Below are positions 1-58,339 of a DNA stretch of 64,000 nucleotides, in pieces. A program made the position numbers and the translations under genes. The notes below the pieces were generated by a model that was not told the DNA's origin, ran no database searches, and worked only from the letters and a program-made list of their open reading frames with translations. Within the stretch, counting starts at the first letter, position 1, and every line of letters begins with the position of its first letter. Source of the DNA: Nitrospirillum viridazoti CBAmc (GTDB lineage Bacteria > Pseudomonadota > Alphaproteobacteria > Azospirillales > Azospirillaceae); NCBI RefSeq assembly GCF_000730165.1, contig NZ_CP022111.1, forward strand, positions 744,001 through 808,000, read 5' to 3'.

Positions 1-1400
1 CTGGGCATGACCAGCCCCAGGATGGAGATCATGCTGAGGGCCCCGCCCGCGGCGACGCCCAGGGTCAGCCGCTTCAGGCAGCCGATGCGCTCCAGCACCA
101 CGAAGGCGATGCCGGTGGCCAGCGCCAGGCCGCCGGCGACGAAGCCCGCCGGCAGGTTGGTGCCCTCCAGCCGCAGCGGCGCGCCGGCACCCAGCACAGC
201 CAGCGCGCCGGTGATGACGAGGTAGAGGACAATGACAGCCCAGCGGCCGATGCGGCCGGCCAGCGGGGGCCGGACACGCTCTTCCCGCGGAACGTTGCGG
301 TTGGCCGCCTTTTCCGCCGCCGCCTTGGCGTCGATGCGCGACAGCAGCGCCGCCATGCCCAGAAGGGCCAGGGCGGGGAAGGTGGGCAGGACGTAGTGGG
401 GCAGCTTGGTCGCCACCGCCTCGAAGATCAGCCATGTGGGCACGATCCAGGCCAGGCAAAAGCGCACGGCGTCGTCATGGCGGCGGCGCCAGGCCCAGGC
501 GGCACCCAGGCCCACCAGCAAGCTGCCCGGCCAGAAGCTGAGCCAGAAGGTGATAAGGTAATAACCCGGCGGACCGGCGTGCTTCTCCTGGCCCGAATTC
601 ACCTTTCCCAGGAACTCGTGCCCGATGGCGTCGGCGAAGAACTGCCCCTTGGTGGCGATAGCGATCAGGATGGCCCAGGGCAGCACCATGGCCAGCACGA
701 TGGCCAGGCCGGGCAGGGGGCGCAGGCTCTTCAGCCAGGACCAGTCGCGGTCGGCGAAGCCCAGGGTGACGATGCTGCCCAGCACGGGCAGTAGGATGAC
801 CGGCCCCTTGATCAGGATGCCCACGCCCAGGGCGATCCAGAAGGTCAGCGTCAGGCCCCAGGTGGGGGGCATGGGCTTGCGCCGGTCCAGGTAGATGCGG
901 CCCAGCGCGCCCATGGCGGCCACCACGGAGGCCAGCAGCACGGCGTCGGTCTTGGCCATGCGCGCCTCGACGCTCAGCAGGACGCAGACGGACATCAGCA
1001 GGGCGGCGCCGAAGCCGGCGGTGGCGCCGAACAGCAGCTGTCCCGCCCAGGCGGTCAGCAGCACGGCGGCGACGGCGCCGATCAGCGAGGGCAGGCGATA
1101 GGCCCAGATGGGCGTGGTCTCGGGGTCATGCTCGCCGGTGATGGCCTGCACGGCCGTGACCGTGGCGCTCTGCAGCCAGTGGATGCCCACCGGCTTCTTG
1201 TTGCGCGCCTCATCCTGGAAGCGGATGGACACGAAGTCGCGGGTTTCCAGCATCTGCCGCGTCGCCTGGGCGAAACGGCTCTCATCCCGGTCGAAGGGTG
1301 GGATGGTGGTGAAGCCCGGCAGGAAGGTCGCCAGCGCCAGCAGCGCCAGGATGACATAGTGCACGGGCCGCAGGACGGCGGGGCGGAAGGTGTCGTTCAT
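1..1400 (-). CDS. ArnT-like phospholipid-dependent glycosyltransferase (GT39/PMT_2), C-terminus outside window
   Basis: The frame is open from an ATG at 1400 to the left edge, so at least 466 codons are present and the C-terminus is missing. The N-terminus has one membrane segment followed by PPFDRDESRFAQA, the acidic first-loop DE motif of the ArnT/PMT_2 family, then KKPVGIHWLQ and repeated hydrophobic segments, as in inner-membrane transferases that take a sugar from a polyprenyl-phosphate carrier. The gene is the third of a minus-strand operon, 15 nt behind the LAB_N gene and downstream of an ArnC-like transferase. That context suggests sugar modification of lipid A or another envelope glycan. 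The family is secure from the motif and topology; the sugar and acceptor are not known. Confidence 0.85.
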   Translation of the reverse strand, partial: MNDTFRPAVLRPVHYVILALLALATFLPGFTTIPPFDRDESRFAQATRQMLETRDFVSIRFQDEARNKKPVGIHWLQSATVTAVQAITGEHDPETTPIWAYRLPSLIGAVAAVLLTAWAGQLLFGATAGFGAALLMSVCVLLSVEARMAKTDAVLLASVVAAMGALGRIYLDRRKPMPPTWGLTLTFWIALGVGILIKGPVILLPVLGSIVTLGFADRDWSWLKSLRPLPGLAIVLAMVLPWAILIAIATKGQFFADAIGHEFLGKVNSGQEKHAGPPGYYLITFWLSFWPGSLLVGLGAAWAWRRRHDDAVRFCLAWIVPTWLIFEAVATKLPHYVLPTFPALALLGMAALLSRIDAKAAAEKAANRNVPREERVRPPLAGRIGRWAVIVLYLVITGALAVLGAGAPLRLEGTNLPAGFVAGGLALATGIAFVVLERIGCLKRLTLGVAAGGALSMISILGLVMP

Positions 1401-1415
1401 CGATCGGGCGTCCCG

Positions 1416-1751
1416 TCAGGTCGCGGCGGCGGCTTCGGCGCGCTTGTGCTTATGGATCAGGTGCAGGTTGCGGGCATAGACCACCAGGCCGGGCAGTTGG
1501 CCGGCGATGATGACCAGGTCGGGCTTCAGCAGGCCGTACAGCAGCACCAGGGCGCCGCCCGCCAGGCTGAAATACCAGAAGGTCACGGGCACGACGCTGC
1601 GGCCGGCGCGCTCGCTGGAAATCCACTGCACGATGAAGCGCGACATGAACATGGCCTGGCCGAACAGGCCGAAGGCGGCGATCCAGCCGTTCTTGCCCAG
1701 CGCTGCCTGCCACCAGTGCATCAGGAACTGCGCGATATGGTCCCACACCAT
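1416..1751 (-). CDS. Lipid A biosynthesis N-terminal domain (LAB_N) membrane protein
   Basis: A 111-residue protein with about three hydrophobic segments, the pattern GKNGWIAAFGLFGQAMFMSRFIVQW and then PVTFWYFSLAGG, which I recognise as the LAB_N domain. In some bacteria this domain is fused to the N-terminus of a glycosyltransferase; here it is a stand-alone gene. It starts 3 nt after the stop of the ArnC-like transferase and ends 15 nt before the ArnT-like gene, so the three genes form one operon. LAB_N proteins are thought to help flip or modify undecaprenyl-linked sugars at the inner membrane; the exact role is not established. Full length for the family. Confidence 0.85.
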   Translation of the reverse strand: MVWDHIAQFLMHWWQAALGKNGWIAAFGLFGQAMFMSRFIVQWISSERAGRSVVPVTFWYFSLAGGALVLLYGLLKPDLVIIAGQLPGLVVYARNLHLIHKHKRAEAAAAT

Positions 1752-1754
1752 GGC

Positions 1755-2474
1755 TCAGACCTCCCGCACCGTGCCGGGCATGGTGTTCCGCCGCAGCATC
1801 CACAGCATGCCCAAGAGGTCGAAGAAGCCGACGAAGGCGCGGCCGATGTTGGTGTACTTGGACCGGCCGGCGTGACGCTTGCGGTCGTTGATGGGCACGT
1901 TGGCCATCTTCCAACCGCTGTAGGTGGCGACCGTGGGGATGAAGCGGTGCACCGCGTCGAACTGCGGCAGTTCCAGCATGGCCGCGCGATGGACCAGCTT
2001 GAAGCCGCAGCCCGTATCGGGGCATCCGTCGCGCAGCAGGGCGCGGCGGATGCCGTTGCCCAGGCGCGAGGTGATCTTCTTGGCCAGGGTGTCGTCGCGG
2101 CGGCGGCGGATGCCGCATACCACCTTCACCTCCGCGTCCCGTTCCACCGCCGCCAGCATGGGCGCGATGTCGCGGGGATCGTTCTGCATGTCGCCGTCGA
2201 CCATCATGATCCAGTCGGTCTTGGCGGCATGGCAGCCTGTGCGGATGGCGCGGCTCTTGCCCGCCCGCTTGCCGTGGCGCATGACGCGCACGAAGGGATA
2301 CTTGGCCTTGGCCTGCTGCAGCTCATCCGGCGTGCCGTCCGTGCTGCCGTCGTCAACGAACAGGACCTCATAGTCCCCGGGGTAGGGAGCGACGGCTTGC
2401 AGTTCTTCCAGCAGCGGCAGGATGTTCCCCTGCTCGTTCAGGACGGAAATCAGGATGGTGTAGCGCAAACCCAT
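1755..2474 (-). CDS. Glycosyltransferase family 2, ArnC/DPM1-like
   Basis: 239 residues beginning MGLRYTILISVLNEQGN, the start of a GT-A fold. The nucleotide-sugar loop VDDGSTDGT (about residues 42-50) and the DGDMQND metal-binding motif (about 97-103) are present. It should transfer a sugar from a nucleotide donor to a polyprenyl phosphate at the cytoplasmic face, supplying the downstream ArnT-like enzyme. An upstream in-frame start would add 35 residues without family similarity; I chose ATG 2474 because GAGGTG lies directly before it. Unlike E. coli ArnC there is no clear pair of C-terminal membrane helices, which suits a short DPM1-type enzyme. First gene of the three-gene operon. Confidence 0.87.
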   Translation of the reverse strand: MGLRYTILISVLNEQGNILPLLEELQAVAPYPGDYEVLFVDDGSTDGTPDELQQAKAKYPFVRVMRHGKRAGKSRAIRTGCHAAKTDWIMMVDGDMQNDPRDIAPMLAAVERDAEVKVVCGIRRRRDDTLAKKITSRLGNGIRRALLRDGCPDTGCGFKLVHRAAMLELPQFDAVHRFIPTVATYSGWKMANVPINDRKRHAGRSKYTNIGRAFVGFFDLLGMLWMLRRNTMPGTVREV

Positions 2475-2681
2475 CACCTCGGGGCACGAAGGGCATAAAA
2501 ATAGACCGGGCCGCCGCCCGGCGAAGGCGGTCCGGATCATTTGGGCCAGAAAGCTACAGATTGCCGCCAGCGTCAACAAGGGCGGCCTTGTCCCGCCGGC
2601 CGCATAGGGCAGGGGTGCCCTGCGGCGGGACGCCTTGAACGGTGCCGCCCCGGAAACTCGTGGGGGTGAGGGCTGGGGCGG

Positions 2682-3341
2682 TCAGGCCACCGAGGCCAGA
2701 GGGGCGGCCAGGGCCAGGACGTCGGCGACGCTGACGCTGCGCACGCCGGCCGCCATCCAATCACGGCGGGCGGCGGTGAGCGAGCCATGCAGGTCGATGG
2801 CGCGGCAGGCGTCTTCCACGATCAACGCCTCGAAGCCCAGGCGGGCGGCGTCGGTGGCGGAGTAGGCCACGCAATAATCCGTGGCCAGCCCGGCCAGGTA
2901 GATGCGGTGGATGCCGCGCTCCCGCAGGGCGCCGGCCAGGCCCGTCGGCGTCACCTTGTCGTTCTCGAAAAAAGCGGAGTAGCTGTCGATGTGGGGGCGG
3001 AAGCCCTTGCGCACCACCAGCTGCGCCTTCTCCACCGCCGGCGCCAGCCCGGGGTGGAACGCCGCGCCGGCGGAGCCCTGGACGCAATGGTCGGGCCACA
3101 GCATCTGCGGGCCGTAGGGCATTTGCACCATGTCATAGGGCCGGTGCCCGGGGTGGGCGCTGGCGAAGGAGAGATGGCCGGCCGGATGCCAGTCCTGGGT
3201 CAGGATGACGGTGTTGAAATGGGCCGCCAAGTCGTTGGCCGGCTCCACCACCGCGTCGCCGTCCTTAACCGCCAGGGCGCCCCCGGGACAGAAGTCATTC
3301 TGAATATCGATCAGGATCAAGGCATCGGTGTCAGTGTGCAT
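2682..3341 (-). CDS. pncA: Nicotinamidase (pyrazinamidase) PncA
   Basis: 219 residues of the isochorismatase-like hydrolase fold. It converts nicotinamide to nicotinate and ammonia for the NAD salvage pathway in the cytoplasm. The catalytic triad is visible: Asp12 in LIDIQNDF, Lys112 in VVRKGF, Cys157 in ATDYCVA. Metal ligands are Asp50, His52 and His56 in TQDWHPAGH, with His85 in WPDHC. Length is normal for bacterial PncA. It is a single gene on the minus strand, with rne upstream in the same orientation but separated by a terminator at about 3477-3508, so it probably has its own promoter in 3342-3470. Confidence 0.95.
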   Translation of the reverse strand: MHTDTDALILIDIQNDFCPGGALAVKDGDAVVEPANDLAAHFNTVILTQDWHPAGHLSFASAHPGHRPYDMVQMPYGPQMLWPDHCVQGSAGAAFHPGLAPAVEKAQLVVRKGFRPHIDSYSAFFENDKVTPTGLAGALRERGIHRIYLAGLATDYCVAYSATDAARLGFEALIVEDACRAIDLHGSLTAARRDWMAAGVRSVSVADVLALAAPLASVA

Positions 3342-3402
3342 GAGGACGACCTAGCGTTAAAAAAGGGCAATTTCCGCGAGAAGGGCGAGTCGCGGGATGG
3401 CG

Positions 3403-3462
3403 TTCAGTGAACATCGTGCCCAAAGGCACCGTCGCCTTCACACGGGGAACCCATTCACTGAA
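3403..3462. repeat. 9-bp inverted repeat pair between pncA and rne
   Basis: TTCAGTGAA at 3403-3411 and its exact reverse complement TTCACTGAA at 3454-3462, 42 nt apart, both also near-palindromic. They lie 60-120 nt upstream of pncA, where an operator could sit. No function can be assigned from sequence alone. Confidence 0.3.
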
Positions 3463-3476
3463 ACACATCGTACATG

Positions 3477-3508
3477 AAAAAACCCTCCCGAACCGCAGTT
3501 CGGGAGGG
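3477..3508 (-). terminator. Intrinsic terminator of rne
   Basis: A perfect 11-bp stem (3483-3493 with 3498-3508) closing a 4-nt loop (cgca). Read on the minus strand it is followed by six T (AAAAAA at 3477-3482 on the plus strand). It lies about 50 nt beyond the rne stop codon and separates rne from pncA. Confidence 0.9.
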
Positions 3509-3555
3509 CTGATTCTTTTAGGATTATGGCACTAGGCCCTCTGTCCAGCAGGGGC

Positions 3556-6500
3556 TTACTTCAGGATACGGTTCCACCAGCCCTTCCTGGGCTGCTCCAC
3601 CACCGGGTTCAGCTCCACCGAAGGGTGGACCTCCGGGGTGGCCGTCTCGGAAGACGTGGCCTCGGGCGCAGGCTCCACCGCCACCGCCACCGGCTCGGGC
3701 GCCGCGATGGGGGCGACGGGCTCGGCCACCGCCGGCGCTTGCTCGGCGACCGGAGCATCAGCCGGGGCGTCCACGGGGGCTGCCTTCTTGCGGCTGCGGG
3801 TGGCGCGCTTGGGCTTGGCCGGAGCCTCCTCCGCGACCGGCTCGGCGGCAGGGGCCGCTTCGACCGGTGCGGCCTCGGCCACCGGGGCTTCGGCGGCAGG
3901 GGCCTCCTCCGCCACCGGTGCGGCCTTCTTGCGGCTGCGCGTGGCGCGCTTGGGCTTGGCGGGGGCTTCTTCCGCGACCGGCTCGGCGGCGGGGGCCGCT
4001 TCGACCGGTGCGGCCTCGGCCACCAGAACCTCGGCGACCGGCGTGTCCACCGGGGCGGCCTCGGTGGTGGTGGTCTCCACCGGCTCGGTGGCCGGCACAG
4101 GCACGGCCTCGCCTTCGGCCGGGATGGTCACGCCCTCGGCGTCGACAGCGTCCTCGCCCTCGGCACCACCCTCATGATCCTCACCCTCGGCCGCGCCCTC
4201 GACGCCATGGCGGCCGCGACGGCGACCGCCGCGCTTGCCGCGCCGGCGCTTCTTGCGCTCGCCATTGGCGTCATCACCATCGGCCGCTTCCGCGGATTCG
4301 GCGCCTTCGCCATCAGCATCCTCGGCAACGGCCAGGTCGGCCTCTTCGACGGGCTGCTCACCCTCGGCCGCTTCCACGGCCTGCGGCGCGCCCTCATACC
4401 GGTCCTGAGCACCGCCACGACGGCGGCGGCGGCGACGGCGGCGATCCTGGCCATTGCCTTCGCCGTTGGCAGCCTCGGCCGTGGTCTCCTCGATCTCCTC
4501 TTCGGCGACCTCGTCCTCCACCTCGTCCACGTGCTCCAGCGCACGATCGGTCTCGGCATAGATGCGCTCGGCGCTCACGGCGGCGGCGGGCTGGTCGTCG
4601 GCCGCAGTGCGGGCGCGGATGCGTTCCAGACGGTGGTCCGGCGGCACCAGGCTGTCGTCGGCCGACAGGAAGACGCGGAAGCCGTAGCGGCGTTCGATGG
4701 CCGTCAGGGCGTCGCGCTTCTGGTTCAGGATGTACAGGGTGACCGAGCTGGCGGCTGTCACCGTGATCTCGGTGGAGCGCCGGCGGATGCCTTCATCCTC
4801 GATGGCGCGCAGAACGGCCAGCGCGGCGCTTTCCAGCGAGCGCACCATGCCGGTGCCCTCACAATGCGGGCAGCGCTCGAAGTTGATTTCCTGCAGCGAC
4901 GGGCGCAGGCGCTGACGCGACAGCTCCATCAGGCCGAAGGGCGAGATACGGCCCAGCTGGATGCGCGCCCGGTCGGCCTTCATGGCCTCCTTCAGGCGCT
5001 TCTCGACGGCGGCGTTATTGCGGCCGTCCTCCATGTCGATGAAGTCGATGACGATCAGGCCGGCCAGATCGCGCAGGCGCAGCTGGCGGGCCACCTCCTC
5101 GGCGGCCTCCAGGTTGGTGCGCAGCGCCGTCTCTTCGATGTTCCGCTCCTTGGTGGCGCGGCCGGAGTTGACGTCGATGGCGACCAGGGCTTCCGTCTGG
5201 TTGATGACGATGTACCCGCCGGAGCGCAGCTGCACCACCGGGTTGAACATGGCGTCGATCTGGTTGTCCACCTGGAAACGGTGGAACAGCGGAATGTCGT
5301 CCGTATAGAGCTGGATCTTCTTGGCGTGGCTGGGCATCAGCATGCGCATGAAGTCCTTGGCGGTGCGGTAGCCCGCCGCGCCCTCCACATGCACCTCGTC
5401 GATGTCGCTGGCGTACAGGTCGCGGATGGACCGCTTGATGAGGTTCGCTTCCTCATAGATCAGTGCCGGCGCCACCGCTTGCATGGTCTGCTCGCGGATG
5501 TTGTCCCACAGGCGCATCAGGTACTCGAGGTCGCGCTTGATCTCCTGCTTGGACCGTTCCATGCCCGCGGTGCGCAGGATGACGGCCATGCCCTTCGGGA
5601 TGTCCAGCTCCTCCAACAACTCCTTCAGGCGCTTGCGATCCTGCGGGTTGGTGATCTTCCGGCTGATGCCGCCGCCCCGGGGGGTGTTGGGCATCAGGAC
5701 GCAGTAGCGGCCGGGCAGGGACAGGTAGGTGGTCAGGGCCGCACCCTTGGTGCCGCGCTCTTCCTTCGTCACCTGCACCAGCAGGATCTGCCGGCGGCGG
5801 ATGACTTCCTGGATTTTGTAAGAGCGCAGCGAGCGCGGACGGCGGCGTTCCTCGCCCTCCTCGTCGGCGTGCGCGGCCTCGCCATGGTGGCCGTTCTCCT
5901 GCGGGGCGCGATCCCCGCCGCGATCGTTACGGCCGCGACGGCCCCGGCGGCCGCGGTGACGGCGGCGGTCGCCACCCTGGCGGGCATTCTCGCCCTCGGT
6001 GGTCTCACCCTCGGCGGCCTCGCCGTCTTCACCCTCGTCACCGTCTTCGACGTCGTCGTCGCCTTCGGTGAAGTCCGCACCCTCGGCGAACTCGGCAGTT
6101 TCGCCATCGGCGTCGCCGGTGGTGGCGTGTTCCGCCGGCAGATCCTCGGTGATGTAGGGCTGCTCAATGGTCAGGGGCTGGGCCGGGGGCACGTAGGCCT
6201 CTTCCGGATGACCCTCCGGCACCACCAGGTCGGTGGCCACGGTTTCATGCGCGCCAACCTCGTCGGCCACCGCCTCATAAGCGGCGGCCGGGGCGGCTTC
6301 GCCTTCCTCATAGCTCACGGCGGAGGCGCCGGCTTCCAGCAGAGGCGGGTGCTCCGCCGCGTGCAGGGCCTCCTCCTCCTCGTGCTCCATCGCCTCGCGC
6401 TCGCGCTCCAGCTCCTCCTGCTCCCGCAGCAGGGCTTCGCGGTCGGCGACCGGGATGCGGTAGTAGTCGGGATGGATTTCGGAGAAGGCGAGGAAGCCGT

Positions 6501-6696
6501 GGCGGTTGCCGCCGTATTCCACGAAAGCCGCCTGCAGCGACGGCTCCACCCGGATCACCTTGGCAAGATAGATATTGCCCTTCAGCTGCTTCCGGCTGGC
6601 GATTTCGAAATCAAGCTCGTCCAGCTTGTTACCATTGACCACGACAACCCGGGTCTGCTCCGGATGCGTGGCGTCGACAAGCATACGCTTGGCCAT
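3556..6696 (-). CDS. rne: Ribonuclease E (Rne/Rng family)
   Basis: 1046 residues. RNase E is the main endonuclease of mRNA decay and rRNA/tRNA processing and the scaffold of the degradosome. The N-terminus MAKRMLVDATHPEQTRVVVV opens the S1/RNase H part; a long acidic insert of about 170 residues (about 110-280) interrupts the S1 region, as in other alphaproteobacteria. The catalytic half keeps VAIDVNSGR and VIDFIDMED (metal-binding Asp residues), and the Zn-link appears as ERCPHCEGTG. The C-terminal third is low-complexity, with Arg-rich RNA-binding tracts, Glu/Ala/Pro-rich segments and a duplicated 34-residue block; it ends RKGWWNRILK. A stop in the low-complexity tail would be tolerated, but none is seen. 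Confidence 0.97.
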   Translation of the reverse strand: MAKRMLVDATHPEQTRVVVVNGNKLDELDFEIASRKQLKGNIYLAKVIRVEPSLQAAFVEYGGNRHGFLAFSEIHPDYYRIPVADREALLREQEELEREREAMEHEEEEALHAAEHPPLLEAGASAVSYEEGEAAPAAAYEAVADEVGAHETVATDLVVPEGHPEEAYVPPAQPLTIEQPYITEDLPAEHATTGDADGETAEFAEGADFTEGDDDVEDGDEGEDGEAAEGETTEGENARQGGDRRRHRGRRGRRGRNDRGGDRAPQENGHHGEAAHADEEGEERRRPRSLRSYKIQEVIRRRQILLVQVTKEERGTKGAALTTYLSLPGRYCVLMPNTPRGGGISRKITNPQDRKRLKELLEELDIPKGMAVILRTAGMERSKQEIKRDLEYLMRLWDNIREQTMQAVAPALIYEEANLIKRSIRDLYASDIDEVHVEGAAGYRTAKDFMRMLMPSHAKKIQLYTDDIPLFHRFQVDNQIDAMFNPVVQLRSGGYIVINQTEALVAIDVNSGRATKERNIEETALRTNLEAAEEVARQLRLRDLAGLIVIDFIDMEDGRNNAAVEKRLKEAMKADRARIQLGRISPFGLMELSRQRLRPSLQEINFERCPHCEGTGMVRSLESAALAVLRAIEDEGIRRRSTEITVTAASSVTLYILNQKRDALTAIERRYGFRVFLSADDSLVPPDHRLERIRARTAADDQPAAAVSAERIYAETDRALEHVDEVEDEVAEEEIEETTAEAANGEGNGQDRRRRRRRRRGGAQDRYEGAPQAVEAAEGEQPVEEADLAVAEDADGEGAESAEAADGDDANGERKKRRRGKRGGRRRGRHGVEGAAEGEDHEGGAEGEDAVDAEGVTIPAEGEAVPVPATEPVETTTTEAAPVDTPVAEVLVAEAAPVEAAPAAEPVAEEAPAKPKRATRSRKKAAPVAEEAPAAEAPVAEAAPVEAAPAAEPVAEEAPAKPKRATRSRKKAAPVDAPADAPVAEQAPAVAEPVAPIAAPEPVAVAVEPAPEATSSETATPEVHPSVELNPVVEQPRKGWWNRILK
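3782..4024 (-). repeat. Direct duplication of a 102-bp block inside rne
   Basis: Two near-identical 102-bp copies (3782-3883 and 3923-4024, period 141 bp, multiple of 3) encode the same Ala/Glu/Pro-rich stretch ending in the basic KPKRATRSRKKAAPV motif. It duplicates one putative RNA- or membrane-binding basic patch in the disordered C-terminal scaffold. Confidence 0.85.
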
Positions 6697-7226
6697 TTTT
6701 TATCCTCATGGCACAGAGACGGCCGGCCCGCGCGACGAACGGGTTGACCGGTGTGCCACCGTTTAGTGCCGAAGCATCGGGTCCCCATCGCCGCCGAGGA
6801 AAGAACACCCCGAAACGGCGCTTCCAGGAAGCGGCCAGCGGGGGGGCGGGCGACCGGAACCTGGCGCCGGCCCAGACTTTCAAAGGGGCCAGCGCCGGCT
6901 TCGTGGTTTCACAGGACCGAGCATCCTTCCAGGCGTCACGCCCACGGATCGCATCACAGCGGACTTGGCTGGCTGCGGCACGAAACCCGGGGGCGACGCC
7001 CCGCCCCGGGGAGGGGCGGGCCAGGATACTGGTTGTCGCGAATTCAAGATAAACACGGGGTGGCCCATACTACAATGAAAGAATCACAGTCCCCGCAGTG
7101 CGCCCCTTGGGGGGGGAACGGGACAGGTCATGACGCGGGCGTCGATTGCAGCAGGCGCCGGGCCGGTATCGGTGCCGCTCCGGCGCCACCTATCCGTCGT
7201 TTCTTAGACAAGATCTCATGATCATG
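6697..7226. other. Long divergent intergenic region: rne leader and amiC upstream region
   Basis: About 530 nt without a convincing gene between divergent rne and the amidase gene. It includes a GC hairpin (CCCGCCCC 7000-7007 with GGGGCGGG 7013-7020). A long untranslated leader upstream of rne is known from E. coli, where it mediates RNase E autoregulation; a similar role here is only inference. I saw no clear rne promoter. Confidence 0.5.
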
Positions 7227-7227
7227 C

Positions 7228-7257
7228 TTGAAGCGGTTGATTCAAGGGCGGTATAAG
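7228..7257 (+). promoter_or_regulatory. Candidate sigma70-type promoter of the amidase gene
   Basis: TTGAAG (7228-7233), 18-nt spacer, TATAAG (7252-7257). A 6-bp inverted repeat CTTGAA/TTCAAG (7227-7232, 7241-7246) overlaps it and could be an operator. Transcription would start near 7264, which puts the GTG at 7263 in doubt and favours a start slightly downstream. Confidence 0.45.
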
Positions 7258-7262
7258 GCCGG

Positions 7263-8780
7263 GTGCTGAGCCCGTCTCGTTCTGTTTCGGGGGGATGTGT
7301 CTTGTCCGCCTTTGGGCGCCGACACTGTTTGTTCTGGGGGCACCGGGGGACGCGGCGCGCGGCCCTGGCCGGGACCCTGGCGGGCACCCTCAGCCTGATA
7401 TCCGCGATCATTCCCATGACGGTTTCCGCCGGCAGCCTGGGCACTCTAGACATGGCCCAGACCCAGGTGGCGCAGGCGCAAGTACTGCGCGTGCCATCCG
7501 CGCCCAAGCGCAGCGCGGTGCTGGCCGTGCGCTTGGGGTTGCAGGGCGACGAGACCCGCTTCGTCCTGGAGATGAGCGAGCGCACCGATTACCGCGTGGC
7601 CACCTCGGTCAGCCCGACGCGGGTGGTCATCGATCTGCCAGCGGTCAATTGGCAGGCGGCCCTGCCCGGGGCCGGCCGGGGCCTGGTTAAGGCCGTCCGC
7701 ATGACCAGCAGCCTGACCGGGTCGGCCCAGGTGGTGCTGGAAACCGATGGCCCGGTGCGCGTGGCCAACGCCGATTTCCTGCCGGCGCGTGACGGCCATC
7801 CGCCGCGCCTGGTGCTGGACCTGGCCCACGGCGATCTGGGCAGCCTGATGGCGGCCGTCGCCGGCCCATCCGCACCGCCGCCACCCCGCGCGGAAGAGAA
7901 GGCCGTCGCCGTCTTGCCGGAGGCGCCGCCGCCGGGCGTTCCGTCCGTGGGGGCCGCCGTGGTGCCCGCCGCCAACCGCGTGGGCGCCCTGCCCACACTG
8001 CCGTCCGATCCGCCGCCCCCGCCCAAGGCGGCGCCGGTGGTGATGGTGCCGCCAGCGCCGGGCGCCAAGCCCACCCTGCGCGACCGCACGCCCCTGATCG
8101 TGCTGGACCCCGGCCACGGCGGCGACGATCCGGGCGCGACATCCGTCACCGGCGCTTATGAGAAGGACATCACGCTGGCCATGGCCCGGGCGGTGGCCCG
8201 CGCGCTGGAGGCCACCGGCCGCTACCGCGTGGCGCTGACCCGGGACAGCGACGTCTTCATCCCCCTGCGCGAGCGGCCCGGCAAGGCGCGGGCGCTGGGG
8301 GCCGACCTGTTCATCTCGCTGCATGCCGACATCGTGGTGGGGCGGCCGGTGCGCGGCCTGTCGGTCTACACCCTGTCGGACAAGGCCACCGACCGTGAGG
8401 CCGACATGCTGGCCCAGCGCGAAAACCGGTCCGACGCCATCGTCGGCATGGATTTGGCGGACCAAAGCGCGCAGGTGGCCAGCATCCTGATCGACTTGGC
8501 GCAGCGCGATACCCGCAACCAGTCCCGTCGCCTGGCCAACCTGGTGGTGGAGTCGGTGGGGCGCGACATCACGCTGTTGAACTCGCCCCTGCGCTCCGCC
8601 GGTTTCGCCGTGCTGACCGCGCCCGACGTGCCCGCCATCCTGGTGGAGATGGGGTACCTCTCCCATCCCACCGACGCCCGCCTGCTGGCTTCGGACAGCC
8701 ATCGCCGCCGTTTCGCCGCCGACCTGGTGCGCGCAATCGACGGCTATTTTGGGCCGCGCCGCTCCCGCTCACGCAAATAA
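7263..8780 (+). CDS. N-acetylmuramoyl-L-alanine amidase with AMIN domain (AmiC-type)
   Basis: 505 residues from GTG 7263. An N-terminal hydrophobic export segment precedes an AMIN domain (about 70-185), which targets peptidoglycan at the septum, a Pro-rich linker (about 200-270) and an Amidase_3 catalytic domain (about 275-500). Zinc ligands are seen in LDPGHGG (His), GAYEKD (Glu) and SLHAD (His); the catalytic Glu is in VEMGYLS. It cleaves the amide between MurNAc and the stem peptide during daughter-cell separation in the periplasm. TTG 7302, preceded by GGGGGGA, is an alternative start that fits the promoter position better. It precedes the PBP1A gene in the same orientation, a common arrangement. 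Confidence 0.92.
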   Translation: MLSPSRSVSGGCVLSAFGRRHCLFWGHRGTRRAALAGTLAGTLSLISAIIPMTVSAGSLGTLDMAQTQVAQAQVLRVPSAPKRSAVLAVRLGLQGDETRFVLEMSERTDYRVATSVSPTRVVIDLPAVNWQAALPGAGRGLVKAVRMTSSLTGSAQVVLETDGPVRVANADFLPARDGHPPRLVLDLAHGDLGSLMAAVAGPSAPPPPRAEEKAVAVLPEAPPPGVPSVGAAVVPAANRVGALPTLPSDPPPPPKAAPVVMVPPAPGAKPTLRDRTPLIVLDPGHGGDDPGATSVTGAYEKDITLAMARAVARALEATGRYRVALTRDSDVFIPLRERPGKARALGADLFISLHADIVVGRPVRGLSVYTLSDKATDREADMLAQRENRSDAIVGMDLADQSAQVASILIDLAQRDTRNQSRRLANLVVESVGRDITLLNSPLRSAGFAVLTAPDVPAILVEMGYLSHPTDARLLASDSHRRRFAADLVRAIDGYFGPRRSRSRK

Positions 8781-51684: not shown

Positions 51685-53586
51685 CTACCGCCCCATCATC
51701 CAGAACATGCGCCGCCGGCTGTAGCCGCGCCACGTGGCGGGCAGCTTGGCCAGCGCCACGGCCTCTTCCTGCGCCAGGCGGGACAGCAGGCGGGTGCTGC
51801 GGGCCTTGGGGCCGGTACCCTTGGCCAGCTGCGCCACCAGTTGGGCGGCCTGGCGGGCGAGGACCGGGGCGGTGACGGCGCCGTGCAGGCGGGTGAGGGG
51901 GGCCAGGGGATCGGTAGCGGGGCGCTTGGGTGGGGTGATCTTGGCGCCCTTTACAGTCTTGGCCTTGGCCGTCGCCAGGGGATATAGGCCGCGGCAGACC
52001 TCCGCCGTCTCATACAGCCGCTGTGCCCGGCGGCGCAGGCGCTCCAGCGCGTCGGCGGCGGGGGGCGCCTTGGCCACCAGCACGGCGTTCCTGGCGCCAG
52101 GCGGGGGCGGGGACGGCAGCTCCAGCCGGTCGATGGCCCGGGCCACCTTGTCCTGCAGTTCGGCCAGCAGGCGGGGCGCCACGGTCTTCAACGGCTGATC
52201 CAGCGCGGGGGAGGCCCAGCCGCCGCCCTCGACCCAGGCGGCCAGGTCCAGCACCAGGGCGGTATGTCCGGCGCCGCGCAGATGCTTCATCACCCGCCGG
52301 CGCGCCTGCGTGGCGGCGTGGTCCAGGGCCAGGCGCTGGCGCTTGCTCAGGCCGGCGGCCCCCTTGCGGTCGGGCAGCAGGGCGGCGCGTTCGGCCAGGC
52401 GATCCCAGCCGCGCGCGGTTTCCAGCAGGGTGCGCAGGGGGGCCAGGCGCCGGCGCAGGGCGTCCGCCGCTTCCGCATGCGGGTTGGCTCCCACCTTGGC
52501 CCCCACCCTGGGCAGCGGCGCGGGACCGGCCGTGGACGGCAAGGTCATCGCCAGGCGCAGCAGGCGCATCGCCGTGTCCAGCCGGCGGCTGGCCGCCGCC
52601 ATCTCGCGCAGGGCCTGCGTGTCGCCGCTTTCCAGCAGCACCGTGGCGTTTTCCAGCAGGTGGCCCAGGGCATGGCGGGTGGCGTGGCGGAAGCCCTCCG
52701 CCACCGTGGTCACAGGCGTCAGGGCCGCCGGCTGGGCGGGAACGGCCGCCGCCGGCTTGCCGGTCAACAGGCGCAGGCCTGCATCGGCCTTGCTGCCCGT
52801 GGTGATGCGCAGGGGCGCGTGGTGGTGCAGGGCGGCCGCCACCTCGAACAGGGCGGCGACCCGGCCGCCCTTCAGCTCCAGCTCCACCTCCGCCACCGGC
52901 CAGGTGGTCTCCTCCGCGGCCCCCGTTTCATCGTTATTGGGCACGGACAGGCGCACCTCGCCCTGGTCCAGGGCTAGTTCCACGCTGGTGCGCGGGTCGG
53001 GATGCAGCAGCAGCGCGGTCCGTTCGATGTCGGTGGCGAAGCGGGGGGCGACCTGCGCCCACTGTGCCGATGTCAGCAGGTTGAAGATGCCGGCGGGCAG
53101 CAGGCCGATATCGGGCCCGTCGCCCTCAACCGGCAGCGGCCATTCCCATTCGCGCCGGCCGGCGGCGGCGGCGGTGCCGGCGTCCGACGCCCAGGTCTTC
53201 ACCGTCTGCACCCGCCGGTCGCCCTGACGCCGCACCCGCAGGGCCAGGCCGTGGGCGGCCAGGGCCAGGTCCGGGGTGTCGTAATACGTCGTTACCTGGT
53301 GGCGGTGGGCGGGGGGGGCGTCGGCCATGCGCGCCAGCAGGGGCAGCGCTTGCAGGCGGGCCAGTGCCGCCGGCGTGGCCGCCAGCTTCACCTCCACCTC
53401 CCGCACGGCCAGAGCGCGCTTGGGCGGCGGGGGTGTGGCGACGGCCGGGGAACCGTCTGGCGACGACGGTGTTGGAGGGGGTGTTTCGTAAGCGACGGGG
53501 GAGGAAACGGCGGCGCGCCCCGCCTCCTGGGCGGAGGTGTCGGGACCGGTGGTGGTCGGTGTGGGGCGGGCGGGGCCGTTTGTCAT
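51685..53586 (-). CDS. CYTH-CHAD domain protein
   Basis: 633 residues. A Pro/Thr-rich N-terminal 80 residues precede a CYTH triphosphate tunnel domain with REVEVKL (ExExK) and RVRRQGDRRVQTVKTW, then ELELKGGRVAALFEVA. The C-terminal half is a CHAD helical bundle with several His and basic residues (HATRHALGHLLENATVLLE, MRLLRLAMTLP), which in other proteins binds polyphosphate. CYTH domains cleave or bind inorganic tri/polyphosphate. ATG 53586; a TTG 23 codons upstream is possible. The 286 nt upstream (53587-53872) have no other gene. ppk1 lies about 8 kb away. Confidence 0.9.
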   Translation of the reverse strand: MTNGPARPTPTTTGPDTSAQEAGRAAVSSPVAYETPPPTPSSPDGSPAVATPPPPKRALAVREVEVKLAATPAALARLQALPLLARMADAPPAHRHQVTTYYDTPDLALAAHGLALRVRRQGDRRVQTVKTWASDAGTAAAAGRREWEWPLPVEGDGPDIGLLPAGIFNLLTSAQWAQVAPRFATDIERTALLLHPDPRTSVELALDQGEVRLSVPNNDETGAAEETTWPVAEVELELKGGRVAALFEVAAALHHHAPLRITTGSKADAGLRLLTGKPAAAVPAQPAALTPVTTVAEGFRHATRHALGHLLENATVLLESGDTQALREMAAASRRLDTAMRLLRLAMTLPSTAGPAPLPRVGAKVGANPHAEAADALRRRLAPLRTLLETARGWDRLAERAALLPDRKGAAGLSKRQRLALDHAATQARRRVMKHLRGAGHTALVLDLAAWVEGGGWASPALDQPLKTVAPRLLAELQDKVARAIDRLELPSPPPPGARNAVLVAKAPPAADALERLRRRAQRLYETAEVCRGLYPLATAKAKTVKGAKITPPKRPATDPLAPLTRLHGAVTAPVLARQAAQLVAQLAKGTGPKARSTRLLSRLAQEEAVALAKLPATWRGYSRRRMFWMMGR

Positions 53587-53872
53587 CCTGAATGGATAAC
53601 CGAAGACGGGGCTTACGTTAAGATCGTGTTGCGGAATTACATCGATTCCATGCAATCGGGAAATTTTTTTCCGTTATGTTGCCTTGCAGCGCACAGTTGC
53701 GATAGTCTCACAGTTCCGTTGCGTCACAATAAATCGCCACCCTCGTCCGTCCTTACCGGCCCCCGCCCCACCGGCCCATTTCGCCGTTGCGAGGTAGGAT
53801 AATGACTCAAAGTCATGCTTAACGCCGGTTGGACGCGGAACGTATGGGCACAGGCGGTCCGGCGCATCAGGG

Positions 53873-56800
53873 ATGAGCAACCAAACTGGGCATCGAACCA
53901 TCATGAAGTCATCGCTGGCAGCGTCGCGGGATGCTGAGAAGTCCGCGGAAAAGTCCACCGACTCCGGGCAGGCCCCGGCCAAGACCGTGACGCCGGCGAA
54001 GACCCCTGAAACCGCTTCCGCTGGCACCGCCACCGCCACGCCCGGCGTGGACGTGAAGGCGGCCGACGCCGCCACGCTGGCGGCCCTGGCCAAAGCCGGC
54101 CCGCTGCTGGACCGCCCCGTCGCCAAGTTCGCCAGCCTGGACCAGCCGGGCGCCCCCAAGGCCGACGCCGTGGGCCTGACGGCCGACCTGGTGGCGCGCC
54201 TCACCCGCTATACCAAGCTGGCGGACGCCGACCCCTTCGCCAACCCCGTTTCCCTGCTGGCGCTGGACGTCTCCCGCCGCCTGCATTCCGGTGAGCTGGA
54301 TTTGGCGGCGGTGGAGCAGGCCATCCAGTACCTGGGGGCCGAGGGCTTCCTGGCCCGCGCCCGCCGCCTGGGCGCCTATCTGGGCGAGGCCGATCCCGCC
54401 GCCAACGCCGCCCGCATCCGCGCCCTGATCGAGGGACTGGCGGTGGGCGCCGACGGCCAGCCCGTGGCGTTCGAGGCCTTTCGCGCCCAGGTGGAAAAGG
54501 AGATTTTCGGCATCGTCATCACCGCGCACCCGACCTTCAACCTGACGGGTGAGTTGATGGACGCCATGGCCAAGCTGGCCACCGGCCGGGACGAGGCCGG
54601 GGTGCCCTTGACGGCCGCCGCGCGCAAGGCACTGATCGCATCCGTCGCCGCGACGGAACTGCGCCCGGGTGAGCTGTCGCTGGTCGATGAACACCGCCTG
54701 TCGCTGGCCGCCATCACCAACATCCAGGCGGCGTTGCGCACCGTCTACGACATCGTGCTGGCGGTGGCACGGGAACGCTATCCCGAGCAATGGTCGGAGT
54801 TGACGCCGCGCCTGCTGACCGTGGCCAGTTGGGTGGGGTACGACCTGGACGGCCGCTCGGATATCCGCTGGTCCGACACCCTGCACAAGCGCCTGGTGGT
54901 GCAGCTGGGCCAGCTGCGCCATTACCTGGCCGAGGTGCAGGCCATCCGCAAGGTGGCGCCGGTGCAGGAAGACCTGCGCAACACGCTGGACCTGCTGGAA
55001 TCCCGCCTGGCGCTTGCCATCGCCCAGGTGTCGGACGAGGTCGCCGCCTTCGGCAGGGAGACGACCACCCAGAAGGACATCGAAGCCATCGCCCAGCGCA
55101 TGCACGACGGCCTGTCCCTGCGCCTGGTGGAGGCCGCACACGCCATCGAGCAGGTAGACCGCGCCATCCGCCTGGCCTCTGTCGCCGGGAAGGGCGCCGC
55201 CGGCAAGGAGATGAAGGGCGATGAGGTGGTGCGCCGGCTCGCCATCCTGAAGGCGGAGCTGTCGAACTACGGCCTGGGGCAGGCGCACACCCATGTGCGC
55301 ATCAACGCCACCCAGCTGCACAACGCCGTGCGTAAGACCGTGGGCATGGAAACGGCGCCGGACGACCCGCGCTACCGCCAATCCTACCTGAACGCCATCA
55401 CCGGCCTGCTGGATGAGGTGCGGCCGGTGCGCATCAATTTCGGCAGCATCATCGCCGAACGCACCTCGGCCAAGCGGCTGTTCATGGTCGTGGCCCAGAT
55501 GCTGAAGTACGCCGACGCCTCCGTGCCTGTCCGCTTCCTGATCGCGGAATCAGAATCGGCTTTCACCGTACTGACGGCGCTCTATTACGCCCGACTGTTC
55601 GGCGTGGCCGACAAGGTGGACATCAGCCCCCTATTCGAGACGGAACGGGCGCTGGAGGTGGGCAGCCGCGTCATCGAGCAGCTGCTGGACAACCCGCATT
55701 ACCGCGACTACGTGAAGCGGCGCGGTCGGCTGTGCATCCAGACCGGCTTCTCCGACGCCGGCCGCTACCTGGGCCAGACGCCCGCCTCCGCCAGCATCGA
55801 GCGCTTGCGCCTGCGCATCGCCCGGCTGTTCACCCGCCACCGCCTGGATGGTGTGCAGCTGGTGATCTTCGACACCCACGGTGAATCCATCGGCCGCGGC
55901 GCCCATCCGGCGGGCTTCCCGGAACGCCTGGGCTATGTCGCGGCCCCGGCCACGCTGTCGTTCATGACCCACCACAAGATCGCCTTCAAGCAGGAGGTCA
56001 GCTTCCAGGGTGGCGACGGCTATCTCTACTTCGTGACCCAGCCGGGCGCCCTGGCCGTGGTCACGCGCATCCTGGAACACATGCTGGGCGGCAAGCACGC
56101 CACCCTGGACGACGACCCGTTCTATGGCGACGCCGACTACATTCGCGAATTCTTCACCACGGTGAAGCAATTCCAGGTGTCGCTGGTGGAGGATCCGAAC
56201 TACGGCGCCCTGCTGTCGGCCCTGGGCACCAACCTGCTCTATCCTTCGGGCAGCCGGGCCATCAAGCGCCAGCACGACGGCAACGCCGACGACGTGGACC
56301 AGAGCCGCGCCTCGCAATTCCGCGCCATCCCCCACAACGCCATCCTGCAGCAGATGGGCCTGCCGGCGAACACCGTCAGCGGCGTGGGCGAGGCCATCGA
56401 CAAGGATCCGGAGCACTTCGCCGACCTCTACCGCACCTCGCCCCGCTTCCGGCAGTTGCTGGGCATGGTGGAGTACGGCGTGGCCATCGCCAGCCCCGAC
56501 GCGCTGAAGGCCTATATCGACACCCTGGACCCGGCCTTCTGGCTGCTGCGCGCCGCGCACACCGCCGACCCCGCCCGGGTGGAGGAGATGCGGCGCCTGG
56601 CGGCCATCCTGGAGGACAACCCCCTCCACAGCCGGCTGATCCGCATTTTCCGCAAGCTCTACCGCGATTTCGACGTGCTGGAGGAAGGGCTGGCCCGGGT
56701 GGAGCGTCATCCGGTGCCGGGCCAGGTTCCGCCGCCGGATGAGGCGCTGAGCAACGGGCTGTTGGTGCTGCACGCCCTGCGCATCGCCCTGATCCAGGAG

Positions 56801-57103
56801 GTGTTCCTGCGGGCGACGCACATCCCGCAGTTCTCCAGCCAGCACAACATCACCCATCGCCGCCTGCTGGCCCGGCTGATGCAGCTGGACGTGCCCTGGG
56901 CCCTGGACCTGCTGTCCCGCATCTTCCCCGTGGCAGAGACCGCGGGGGAGGGCGATTTCGGCGAAAGCGCCACCTACGTCAGCGATGACAGCCAGAACTA
57001 TGGGCAGGAGAACGAGCGCATCTTCAAACCCATTGCCAGCCTGTACGACCTGGTACGCCGGGTGGGCAACGGCATCACTCAGCGCATCGGCTTCTTCGGC
57101 TGA
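53873..57103 (+). CDS. Phosphoenolpyruvate carboxylase homologue with altered active-site motifs
   Basis: 1076 residues, longer than the usual about 900, with a low-complexity Ala/Thr/Glu N-terminal extension (about 1-90). ITAHPTFNLTGELMDAM corresponds to the TAHPTE motif, GFSDAGRYLG to GYSDSxKDxG (Lys replaced by Arg), and FDTHGESIGRGAHP to FHGRGGxxGRGG. The C-terminal half carries SQHNITHRRLLARLMQ-type segments seen in this family. The fold is kept but the glycine-rich loop and catalytic Lys are altered, so HCO3- fixation on PEP cannot be assumed. ATG 53873 versus 53903 unclear; neither has a clear ribosome site. Confidence 0.85.
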   Translation: MSNQTGHRTIMKSSLAASRDAEKSAEKSTDSGQAPAKTVTPAKTPETASAGTATATPGVDVKAADAATLAALAKAGPLLDRPVAKFASLDQPGAPKADAVGLTADLVARLTRYTKLADADPFANPVSLLALDVSRRLHSGELDLAAVEQAIQYLGAEGFLARARRLGAYLGEADPAANAARIRALIEGLAVGADGQPVAFEAFRAQVEKEIFGIVITAHPTFNLTGELMDAMAKLATGRDEAGVPLTAAARKALIASVAATELRPGELSLVDEHRLSLAAITNIQAALRTVYDIVLAVARERYPEQWSELTPRLLTVASWVGYDLDGRSDIRWSDTLHKRLVVQLGQLRHYLAEVQAIRKVAPVQEDLRNTLDLLESRLALAIAQVSDEVAAFGRETTTQKDIEAIAQRMHDGLSLRLVEAAHAIEQVDRAIRLASVAGKGAAGKEMKGDEVVRRLAILKAELSNYGLGQAHTHVRINATQLHNAVRKTVGMETAPDDPRYRQSYLNAITGLLDEVRPVRINFGSIIAERTSAKRLFMVVAQMLKYADASVPVRFLIAESESAFTVLTALYYARLFGVADKVDISPLFETERALEVGSRVIEQLLDNPHYRDYVKRRGRLCIQTGFSDAGRYLGQTPASASIERLRLRIARLFTRHRLDGVQLVIFDTHGESIGRGAHPAGFPERLGYVAAPATLSFMTHHKIAFKQEVSFQGGDGYLYFVTQPGALAVVTRILEHMLGGKHATLDDDPFYGDADYIREFFTTVKQFQVSLVEDPNYGALLSALGTNLLYPSGSRAIKRQHDGNADDVDQSRASQFRAIPHNAILQQMGLPANTVSGVGEAIDKDPEHFADLYRTSPRFRQLLGMVEYGVAIASPDALKAYIDTLDPAFWLLRAAHTADPARVEEMRRLAAILEDNPLHSRLIRIFRKLYRDFDVLEEGLARVERHPVPGQVPPPDEALSNGLLVLHALRIALIQEVFLRATHIPQFSSQHNITHRRLLARLMQLDVPWALDLLSRIFPVAETAGEGDFGESATYVSDDSQNYGQENERIFKPIASLYDLVRRVGNGITQRIGFFG

Positions 57104-57170: not shown

Positions 57171-58148
57171 TCAGAGGTCGGCGACGGCGGCCCGCTCCTC
57201 CATCAGTTCGGCCACCGTGCGGTCCAGCATGCGGCGGGCGAACGCGTCGAGTTCCAGCCCGCGCACCCGCTCGATGCGGCCGTCACGGCATAGGGCGGGC
57301 ACGCCGCAGACCAGGCCCTGGGGCAGGCCGTAATCCCCCTCCGACGCCAGGCCCATGGAAACCCAGCGGTCGCCGCTGCCCTGCACCCAGTCGCGCATGT
57401 GGTCGATGGCGGCATTGGCGGCCGAGGCGGCGGAGGACAGGCCGCGCGCCTCGATGATGGCGGTGCCGCGCTGGGCCACCGTGGGGATCAGGGTGTCGCG
57501 GTACCAGGCGTGGTCGCCGATCAGGTCGGGCAGGGGCCGGCCCTGCACCACCGCGTGCTGCCAGTCGGCGAACATGGTGGGGGAGTGATTGCCCCAGACC
57601 GCCAGCCGTTCGACGGCCGTCACGTCCACCCCAGCCTTGGCCGCCAGCTGCGCCTGGGCGCGGTTGTGGTCCAGCCGAATCATCGAAGTGATGGCGTCGT
57701 GCGGCAGGTCCGGGGCATGCCGGATGGCGATCCAGGCGTTGGTGTTGGCGGGGTTGCCCACCACCAGCACCTTGGCCGTGCGCTTGGCCTGCTCATTCAG
57801 CGCGCGGCCCTGCGCCTTGAAAATGGCGGCGTTGGCCGACAGCAGGTCGCGCCGTTCCATGCCCTTGCCGCGGGGGCGGGACCCCACCAGGAAGGCTGCG
57901 TCGATGTCGCGGAAGGCCACGGCCGGATCGTCGCTGACGCTGATGCCGTTCAGCAGCGGGAACGCGCAATCCTCCAGCTCCATCACCACCCCGCGCAAGG
58001 CGGGCAGGGCCGGCGTGATCTCCAACAGCGACAGGTGGATGGGCTGGCCGGAGCCGAACACGTCGCCCTTGGCCAGGCGGAACAGCAGGGAATAGGCGAT
58101 CTGCCCGGCGGCACCGGAGACGGCGACACGAAGGGGGGCGGTTGTCAT
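57171..58148 (-). CDS. mdh: Malate dehydrogenase
   Basis: 325 residues. [33 protein letters not shown], and active-site [11 protein letters not shown] place it in the cytosolic-type MDH family (not the LDH-like MDH). Substrate Arg residues are in [15 protein letters not shown]. Interconverts malate and oxaloacetate with NAD. ATG 58148 preceded by GAGGTG; the open frame goes on 57 codons upstream without similarity. Convergent with the PEPC-like gene. Confidence 0.95.
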
Positions 58149-58339
58149 GACAGGCACCTCAGGATTGGTTTGCGCTTGCCCCATGAAGCTGCGCGCCATC
58201 CTGAGATCGTTCCAACAGAACGTATTGAATGAACCGATCCGGTTTATTGATGATTGGTCGCAGCGGGCTCGAGGTAAGACCCTTGCCGGCTTTCCGGGAT
58301 CATGCTGCCTTAGGGGCACAACCCGGGGGGCGGCTTGTG

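Follow-up and report, generated by a model that had tools for sequence, protein, structure and literature searches.

The window analysed here is a 64,000-nucleotide stretch of the Nitrospirillum viridazoti CBAmc genome, and it carries a forward-strand gene for a 1076-residue relative of PEP carboxylase (PEPC) in which several canonical PEPC residues are replaced; we refer to this gene and its homologues as the rebuilt type. Its features are given below with residue numbers of the window protein and of E. coli PEPC, and counts are of the 113 non-redundant members of its clade that carry the stated residue. The roles assigned to E. coli PEPC residues in general, including those of E506 and D543 as metal ligands, are taken as background, and we take D252-R253-D254-G255-N256, which our alignment supports, to be the canonical DRDGN in E. 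coli numbering.

51685..53655, minus strand: fused CYTH-CHAD protein; a neighbour, not part of the system, that adjoins the PEPC gene in the genus only
53873..57103, plus strand: rebuilt PEPC gene, an open reading frame of 1076 aa with an ATG start; residues 1–57 predicted disordered
54524..54541, plus strand: AHPTFN, residues 218–223; H219 is E. coli H138, kept, and F222 replaces E141 (clade H 113/113, F 112/113)
54842..54856, plus strand: DLDGR, residues 324–328, for canonical DRDGN; R328 puts a new Arg at E. coli position 256 (clade R 113/113), and L325 aligns with canonical R253
55298..55300, plus strand: R476, E. coli R396, kept (113/113)
55637..55639, plus strand: E589, E. coli E506 (metal ligand), kept (113/113)
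55745..55774, plus strand: GFSDAGRYLG, residues 625–634; D628 is the metal ligand D543, kept, R631 replaces K546 and Y632 replaces D547 (clade D 113/113, R 113/113, Y 93/113)
55871..55900, plus strand: DTHGESIGRG, residues 667–676; D667 for H579, T668 for G580, H669 for R581, E671 for G583, and R675, E. coli R587, kept (clade D 96 and N 16, T 113, H 109 and G 4, E 110 and D 3, R 113)
56255..56257, plus strand: R795, E. coli R699, kept (113/113)
56321..56323, plus strand: R817, E. coli R713, kept (113/113)
57098..57100, plus strand: C-terminal Gly1076, aligned with E. coli G883 (clade G 110/113, 3 gaps)
57171..58319, minus strand: malate dehydrogenase gene mdh (PRK05442 type); a neighbour, not part of the system, that adjoins the PEPC gene in the genus only

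An earlier, sequence-only reading of this DNA had described a 1076-residue PEPC-fold protein with AHPTFN, GFSDAGRYLG and DTHGESIGRG, flanked by a CYTH-CHAD gene and mdh, and all of these are present in the window as it described them. The two flanking genes (CYTH-CHAD domains are linked to polyphosphate) are found beside the PEPC gene only within the same genus; an operon with either was rejected, as neither was found near the gene outside the genus. Neighbours shared over 80 related loci (below) are mostly generic genes such as those for ABC ATPases and dehydrogenases.

The only Pfam match of the window protein is PEPcase (PF00311), at residues 197–680 with 82.7 bits (gathering cut-off 22.4), and its score against the NCBIfam PEPC equivalog NF000584, 81.7 bits, is below that model's cut-off of 815. 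The archaeal-type PEPC family, PF14010, gave no match to the protein at E values up to 10, and none in its genome (G000; 7.38 Mb, 4 contigs). An AlphaFold2 model made with 64 aligned members has a mean pLDDT of 88.3 and a pTM of 0.90, with low confidence at residues 1–57, and it covers E. coli PEPC (1jqn) from end to end (Z 29.8, 808 residues aligned, 4.4 Å, 17% identity). The next structural matches were archaeal-type PEPC 3odm (Z 16.5 over 474 residues) and pyruvate kinases (Z about 12). The window protein is thus predicted to have the PEPC fold over its whole length.

Residue conservation was tabulated for 113 non-redundant clade rows, which include the window protein, and a canonical set of 31 rows, which includes E. 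coli; 6 of the 167 clade open reading frames (all below 850 aa) and near-duplicates (>60% shared 5-mers) were left out of the clade rows. Invariant in both sets are H138, R396, E506, T507, S542, D543, G582, R587, G588, R699, R703 and R713, and the C-terminal Gly is present in 110/113 clade and 29/31 canonical rows. States found only in the clade are E141F (112/113), N256R (113), A261W (113), D394H (108), Gly at 545 (113), K546R (113) and D547Y (93), and in the second loop H579D (96) or H579N (16; 112/113 together), G580T (113), R581H (109, with Gly in the other 4), G583E (110) and His at 590 (113). The clade signatures AHPTF, SDxGRY, F[DN]THGES and DxDGR all occur in the window protein. The four members with Gly at position 581 form the Emcibacter branch (L087, L093, L095 and L098) and read FDTGGES, so the clade does not absolutely depend on His at that position. 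The residues of the aspartate-inhibition site, K773, R832 and N881, are not kept in the clade, in an alignment that is less sure near residues 832–882; regulation should consequently differ from that of canonical PEPC. Mutation of His138, His579 or Arg587 is harmful to E. coli PEPC activity according to the available part of PMC11832675, and of these three the clade keeps His138 and Arg587, with His579 replaced.

Might the canonical motifs be intact but displaced, the alignment that could have overturned the sequence-only reading? Such an alignment was looked for and did not appear: both swapped loops are in gap-free register with canonical PEPC in a profile–profile alignment, the residue alignment agrees, and a motif scan found AHPTE, G[YF]SD[SAT].K and HGRGG nowhere in the 167 clade open reading frames and each of them in 35/35 canonical ones. 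The absence of the canonical K546, H579 and R581 motifs is thereby borne out, the aligned sites holding R (113/113), D or N (112/113) and H (109/113), and the fixed replacements at the K546 and R581 sites are far from chance. Comparison of the window gene with four same-genus genes (L003, L005, L007 and L008) gave NG86 dN/dS values of 0.036, 0.094, 0.126 and 0.147, and a pseudogene or relaxed decay was rejected; the value against L009, from another genus, was 0.456, an estimate that is poor through distance and GC. Within the clade the swaps are fixed rather than degenerate, and the rebuilt residues are strongly constrained.

A protein search of 59 genomes gave matches in 31, of which 27 (the window's own genome included) have the clade; the remaining four (G022, G025, G033 and G043) had weak matches only (19–39 bits) and were excluded. 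In G028 and G032, both members of the family, a weak additional match is present, which we read as canonical PEPC. A wider collection scan gave at least 581 coding matches, 80 of which were kept; 65 of these loci are alphaproteobacterial, and single or few loci are labelled Thermodesulfobacteriota, Gamma- or Betaproteobacteria, Actinomycetota, Acidobacteriota or Myxococcota, although many of the non-alphaproteobacterial clade loci are from metagenome-assembled genomes and some taxon labels may be wrong. Among the matches listed, the closest named relative is Nitrospirillum amazonense (98%). In total, 202 loci, which contain repeats of the same gene, yielded 167 open reading frames of the clade (140 distinct sequences) and 35 of canonical type; no score fell between the two groups. 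A FastTree tree of 101 rows separates the clade from the canonical set by a single long branch with local support of 100. These sequences constitute a large PEPC clade, apparently unrecognised, found mainly in Alphaproteobacteria.

Several other PEPC-like genes were encountered. One 1.9-Mb alphaproteobacterial genome has two in tandem (L204, G414:C7:96500-105000, at 586-3912 and 4014-7487 on the minus strand; 1109 and 1158 aa) that read GFSNN for GYSDS and match none of the AHPT, GSR and RAIP patterns; they are degenerate PEPC-fold paralogues, to which we assign no role. The alphaproteobacterial PEPC-like open reading frames at L203, L205, L206, L207, L208, L209 and L210 are likewise off-type, with a poor fit to both the canonical (25–142 bits) and rebuilt profiles. 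A PF14010 search for true archaeal-type PEPC in 398 genomes of the phylum found none; the 64 weak matches it gave (33.7 bits at best) are to frames of about 860–1290 aa, a length that points to cross-matching with long PEPCs.

At five Dongia-like loci (L044, L045, L047, L048 and L112) the rebuilt PEPC gene has a second succinate/malate–CoA-ligase-like gene pair immediately upstream of it, an arrangement that resembles the serine-cycle gene order mtkA-mtkB-ppc. Three of the beta subunits were scanned and scored 555, 565 and 539 bits, against a malate–CoA-ligase cut-off of 604. Rhodospirillaceae bacterium SYSU D60014 (G430) has both PEPC types with separate partners: a canonical PEPC gene (on contig C30) beside a true malate–CoA ligase (725.5 bits) and a rebuilt one (C23) beside another ligase paralogue. 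Because the true malate–CoA ligase there adjoins the canonical and not the rebuilt gene, the Dongia-like pair was not counted as evidence.

What other enzymes could carry out the same step in genomes with the rebuilt type? The sequence-only reading had proposed a search for a second, canonical ppc in the window's genome, but the window gene is its sole PF00311 gene. That genome also has no pyruvate carboxylase above the TIGR01235 cut-off, and no ATP-PEPCK was found in it; isocitrate lyase is present, an enzyme that serves growth on C2 compounds and not growth on sugars. Among 385 alphaproteobacterial genomes, the rebuilt clade was counted in 57 (61 listed, minus G160, G201, G232 and G400, whose 32–41 bit matches were counted as canonical), canonical PEPC in 37, pyruvate carboxylase in 59 and none of the three in 237. 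The clade occurs together with canonical PEPC in one genome (G314; 5.5 expected) and with pyruvate carboxylase in one (G289; 8.7 expected), that is, with either in 2 genomes versus 13.8 expected (Fisher one-sided p 8.6e-6 for the 385 genomes, a value inflated by kinship among genomes and to be used as a guide only); canonical PEPC and pyruvate carboxylase occur together in 3 versus 5.7 expected. Canonical PEPC is absent from 56 of the 57 clade genomes in this sample of the class and from 15 of 17 named clade genomes, and in six GTDB families (f1, f13, f16, f95, f102 and f107, picked from our tables for holding both PEPC types) genomes with the rebuilt type alone and genomes with canonical PEPC take each other's place. 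The clade also accompanies another of these enzymes in Rhodospirillaceae SYSU D60014 and Paraburkholderia phosphatilytica. Since 237/385 genomes have none of the three enzymes, the absence of any C3 carboxylase is commonplace in this class, which weakens the argument from distribution, as do the genomes that carry the clade together with another of the enzymes and the second matches of G028 and G032.

In 100 genomes of Acetobacteraceae, the family of Gluconacetobacter sacchari, 72 have PF00311 and 71 of those 72 have no canonical PEPC; the rebuilt type is confirmed by open reading frame for 29 of these 71 genomes, and for the remaining 42 it is taken from the score and the range matched. The single genome with a canonical PEPC (G479) has a rebuilt-type match as well, and the only PF00311 gene of G. 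sacchari belongs to the clade. In the available parts of the respective papers, PEPC activity of Gluconacetobacter xylinus CGMCC 2955 was assayed by kit and its PEP-to-oxaloacetate flux modelled (PMC4047042), and a purified ‘Acetobacter’ PEPC, used as a control, was inhibited by aspartate and malate (PMC5259782). If that ‘Acetobacter’ enzyme, whose gene is left unnamed in the available text of PMC5259782, is of the rebuilt type, its aspartate inhibition fits badly with the lost K773/R832/N881 site. The papers, as far as available, call the enzymes of acetic acid bacteria (Gluconobacter oxydans ppc GOX0102 and the Acetobacter and G. xylinus activities) plainly ‘PEPC’, and the main text of the Gluconobacter oxydans transposon-collection paper (PMC12041372) makes no mention of PEPC. 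Their likeness to the clade comes from G. sacchari and the family genomes, and we infer the link between Acetobacteraceae PEPC activity and the clade at the family level, through this named relative.

The window gene probably encodes a working PEPC of a separate, unrecognised subfamily that makes oxaloacetate from PEP and bicarbonate and replaces canonical PEPC or pyruvate carboxylase, a reading built on sequence, predicted fold, invariance and distribution, from which the reaction and the role of each new residue are inferred. Mg-PEP would bind on E589/D628, R476, R795 and R817 as in canonical PEPC, and oxaloacetate and phosphate would form from carboxyphosphate and enolpyruvate with the help of H219 and R675. 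Where canonical enzymes line the pocket with K546, H579 and R581, it would be rebuilt with Arg 546, Asp/Asn 579, Thr-His 580-581, Glu 583 and the new Arg 256, and the enzyme would supply the C3-to-C4 (anaplerotic) step in place of canonical PEPC or pyruvate carboxylase. It is conceivable, if rather doubtful, that the PEPC fold here uses another route or gives another product, the new Arg 256, the fixed Glu 583 and His 581/590 activating bicarbonate otherwise in place of K546, H579 and R581, or taking CO2 or another acceptor.

The main rival, though an unlikely one, is an enzyme that still binds Mg-PEP and catalyses a changed reaction: it might hydrolyse PEP in a bicarbonate-dependent way, say, or carboxylate a different enol phosphate. 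Replacement and fixation of K546, H579, R581, E141 and D547 together, a swap of bicarbonate and loop residues, would suit such an enzyme, as would the genomes that keep a canonical PEPC beside the rebuilt one, but H138 and R587 are invariant, canonical PEPC or pyruvate carboxylase accompanies the clade in only 2 of its 57 genomes, and Acetobacteraceae have almost only the rebuilt type and yet are reported to have PEPC activity. An ordinary PEPC reaction is favoured because of the clade's complementarity to canonical PEPC and pyruvate carboxylase and the PEPC activity in the canonical-poor Acetobacteraceae. The sequence-only reading had left the choice between a different reaction and a regulatory paralogue; its PEPC fold lacking the K546, H579 and R581 motifs stands, and a different reaction is retained as the rival just described. 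The regulatory paralogue, a regulatory or structural pseudo-enzyme that modulates canonical PEPC, is very improbable: loss of motifs relative to E. coli would agree with it, and plants do form class-2 complexes from two PEPC types (section 9 of PMC8100219, as available), but the window's genome, like nearly all the clade genomes counted above, has no canonical PEPC to regulate, the ligands of metal and phosphate do not vary, and constraint on the rebuilt residues is strong.

How does the clade compare with known enzymes? With canonical bacterial PEPC (E. coli Ppc, PF00311, 1jqn) it shares the whole-length fold, H138, R396, E506, D543, R587, R699, R713 and the C-terminal Gly; it is unlike it in the low identity (17%), K546R, R581H, H579D/N, G580T, G583E, E141F, N256R, D394H, the lost aspartate site and its position as a separate clade. 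Archaeal-type PEPC (PF14010, 3odm) is similar in core fold and, according to the available section 9 of PMC8100219, in the absence of allosteric inhibitor residues; it is unlike the clade in that the window protein has no PF14010 match and is twice as long (the PF14010 type is about 500 aa). Plant bacterial-type PEPC (the class-2 complex), in the part of the literature available, is similar in being an additional PEPC type alongside the standard one, but it works with a canonical partner and the window's genome has none. The open-access literature searched contained no description of a PEPC lacking K546, H579 and R581, which is weak evidence of novelty (Dictyostelium PEPC has the canonical residues), no assay of an identified clade member, and no paper on Azospirillum amazonense PEPC or Komagataeibacter ppc.

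PEPC is a textbook carboxylase, and arguments about its mechanism rest on a few residues of the E. coli and maize enzymes. Here several of those residues are swapped together in a family that is found in 57 of 385 genomes, is strongly constrained, and occurs mostly in genomes with neither canonical PEPC nor pyruvate carboxylase, and a screen by residue motif would wrongly call its bearers PEPC-free. If active, the family would show by natural experiment which residues PEPC truly needs, and it might offer metabolic engineering a PEPC without the canonical aspartate site. If the other route or product considered above is true, a second catalytic solution would have arisen in the PEPC fold and spread through the Alphaproteobacteria, including acetic acid bacteria and uncultured members with small genomes.
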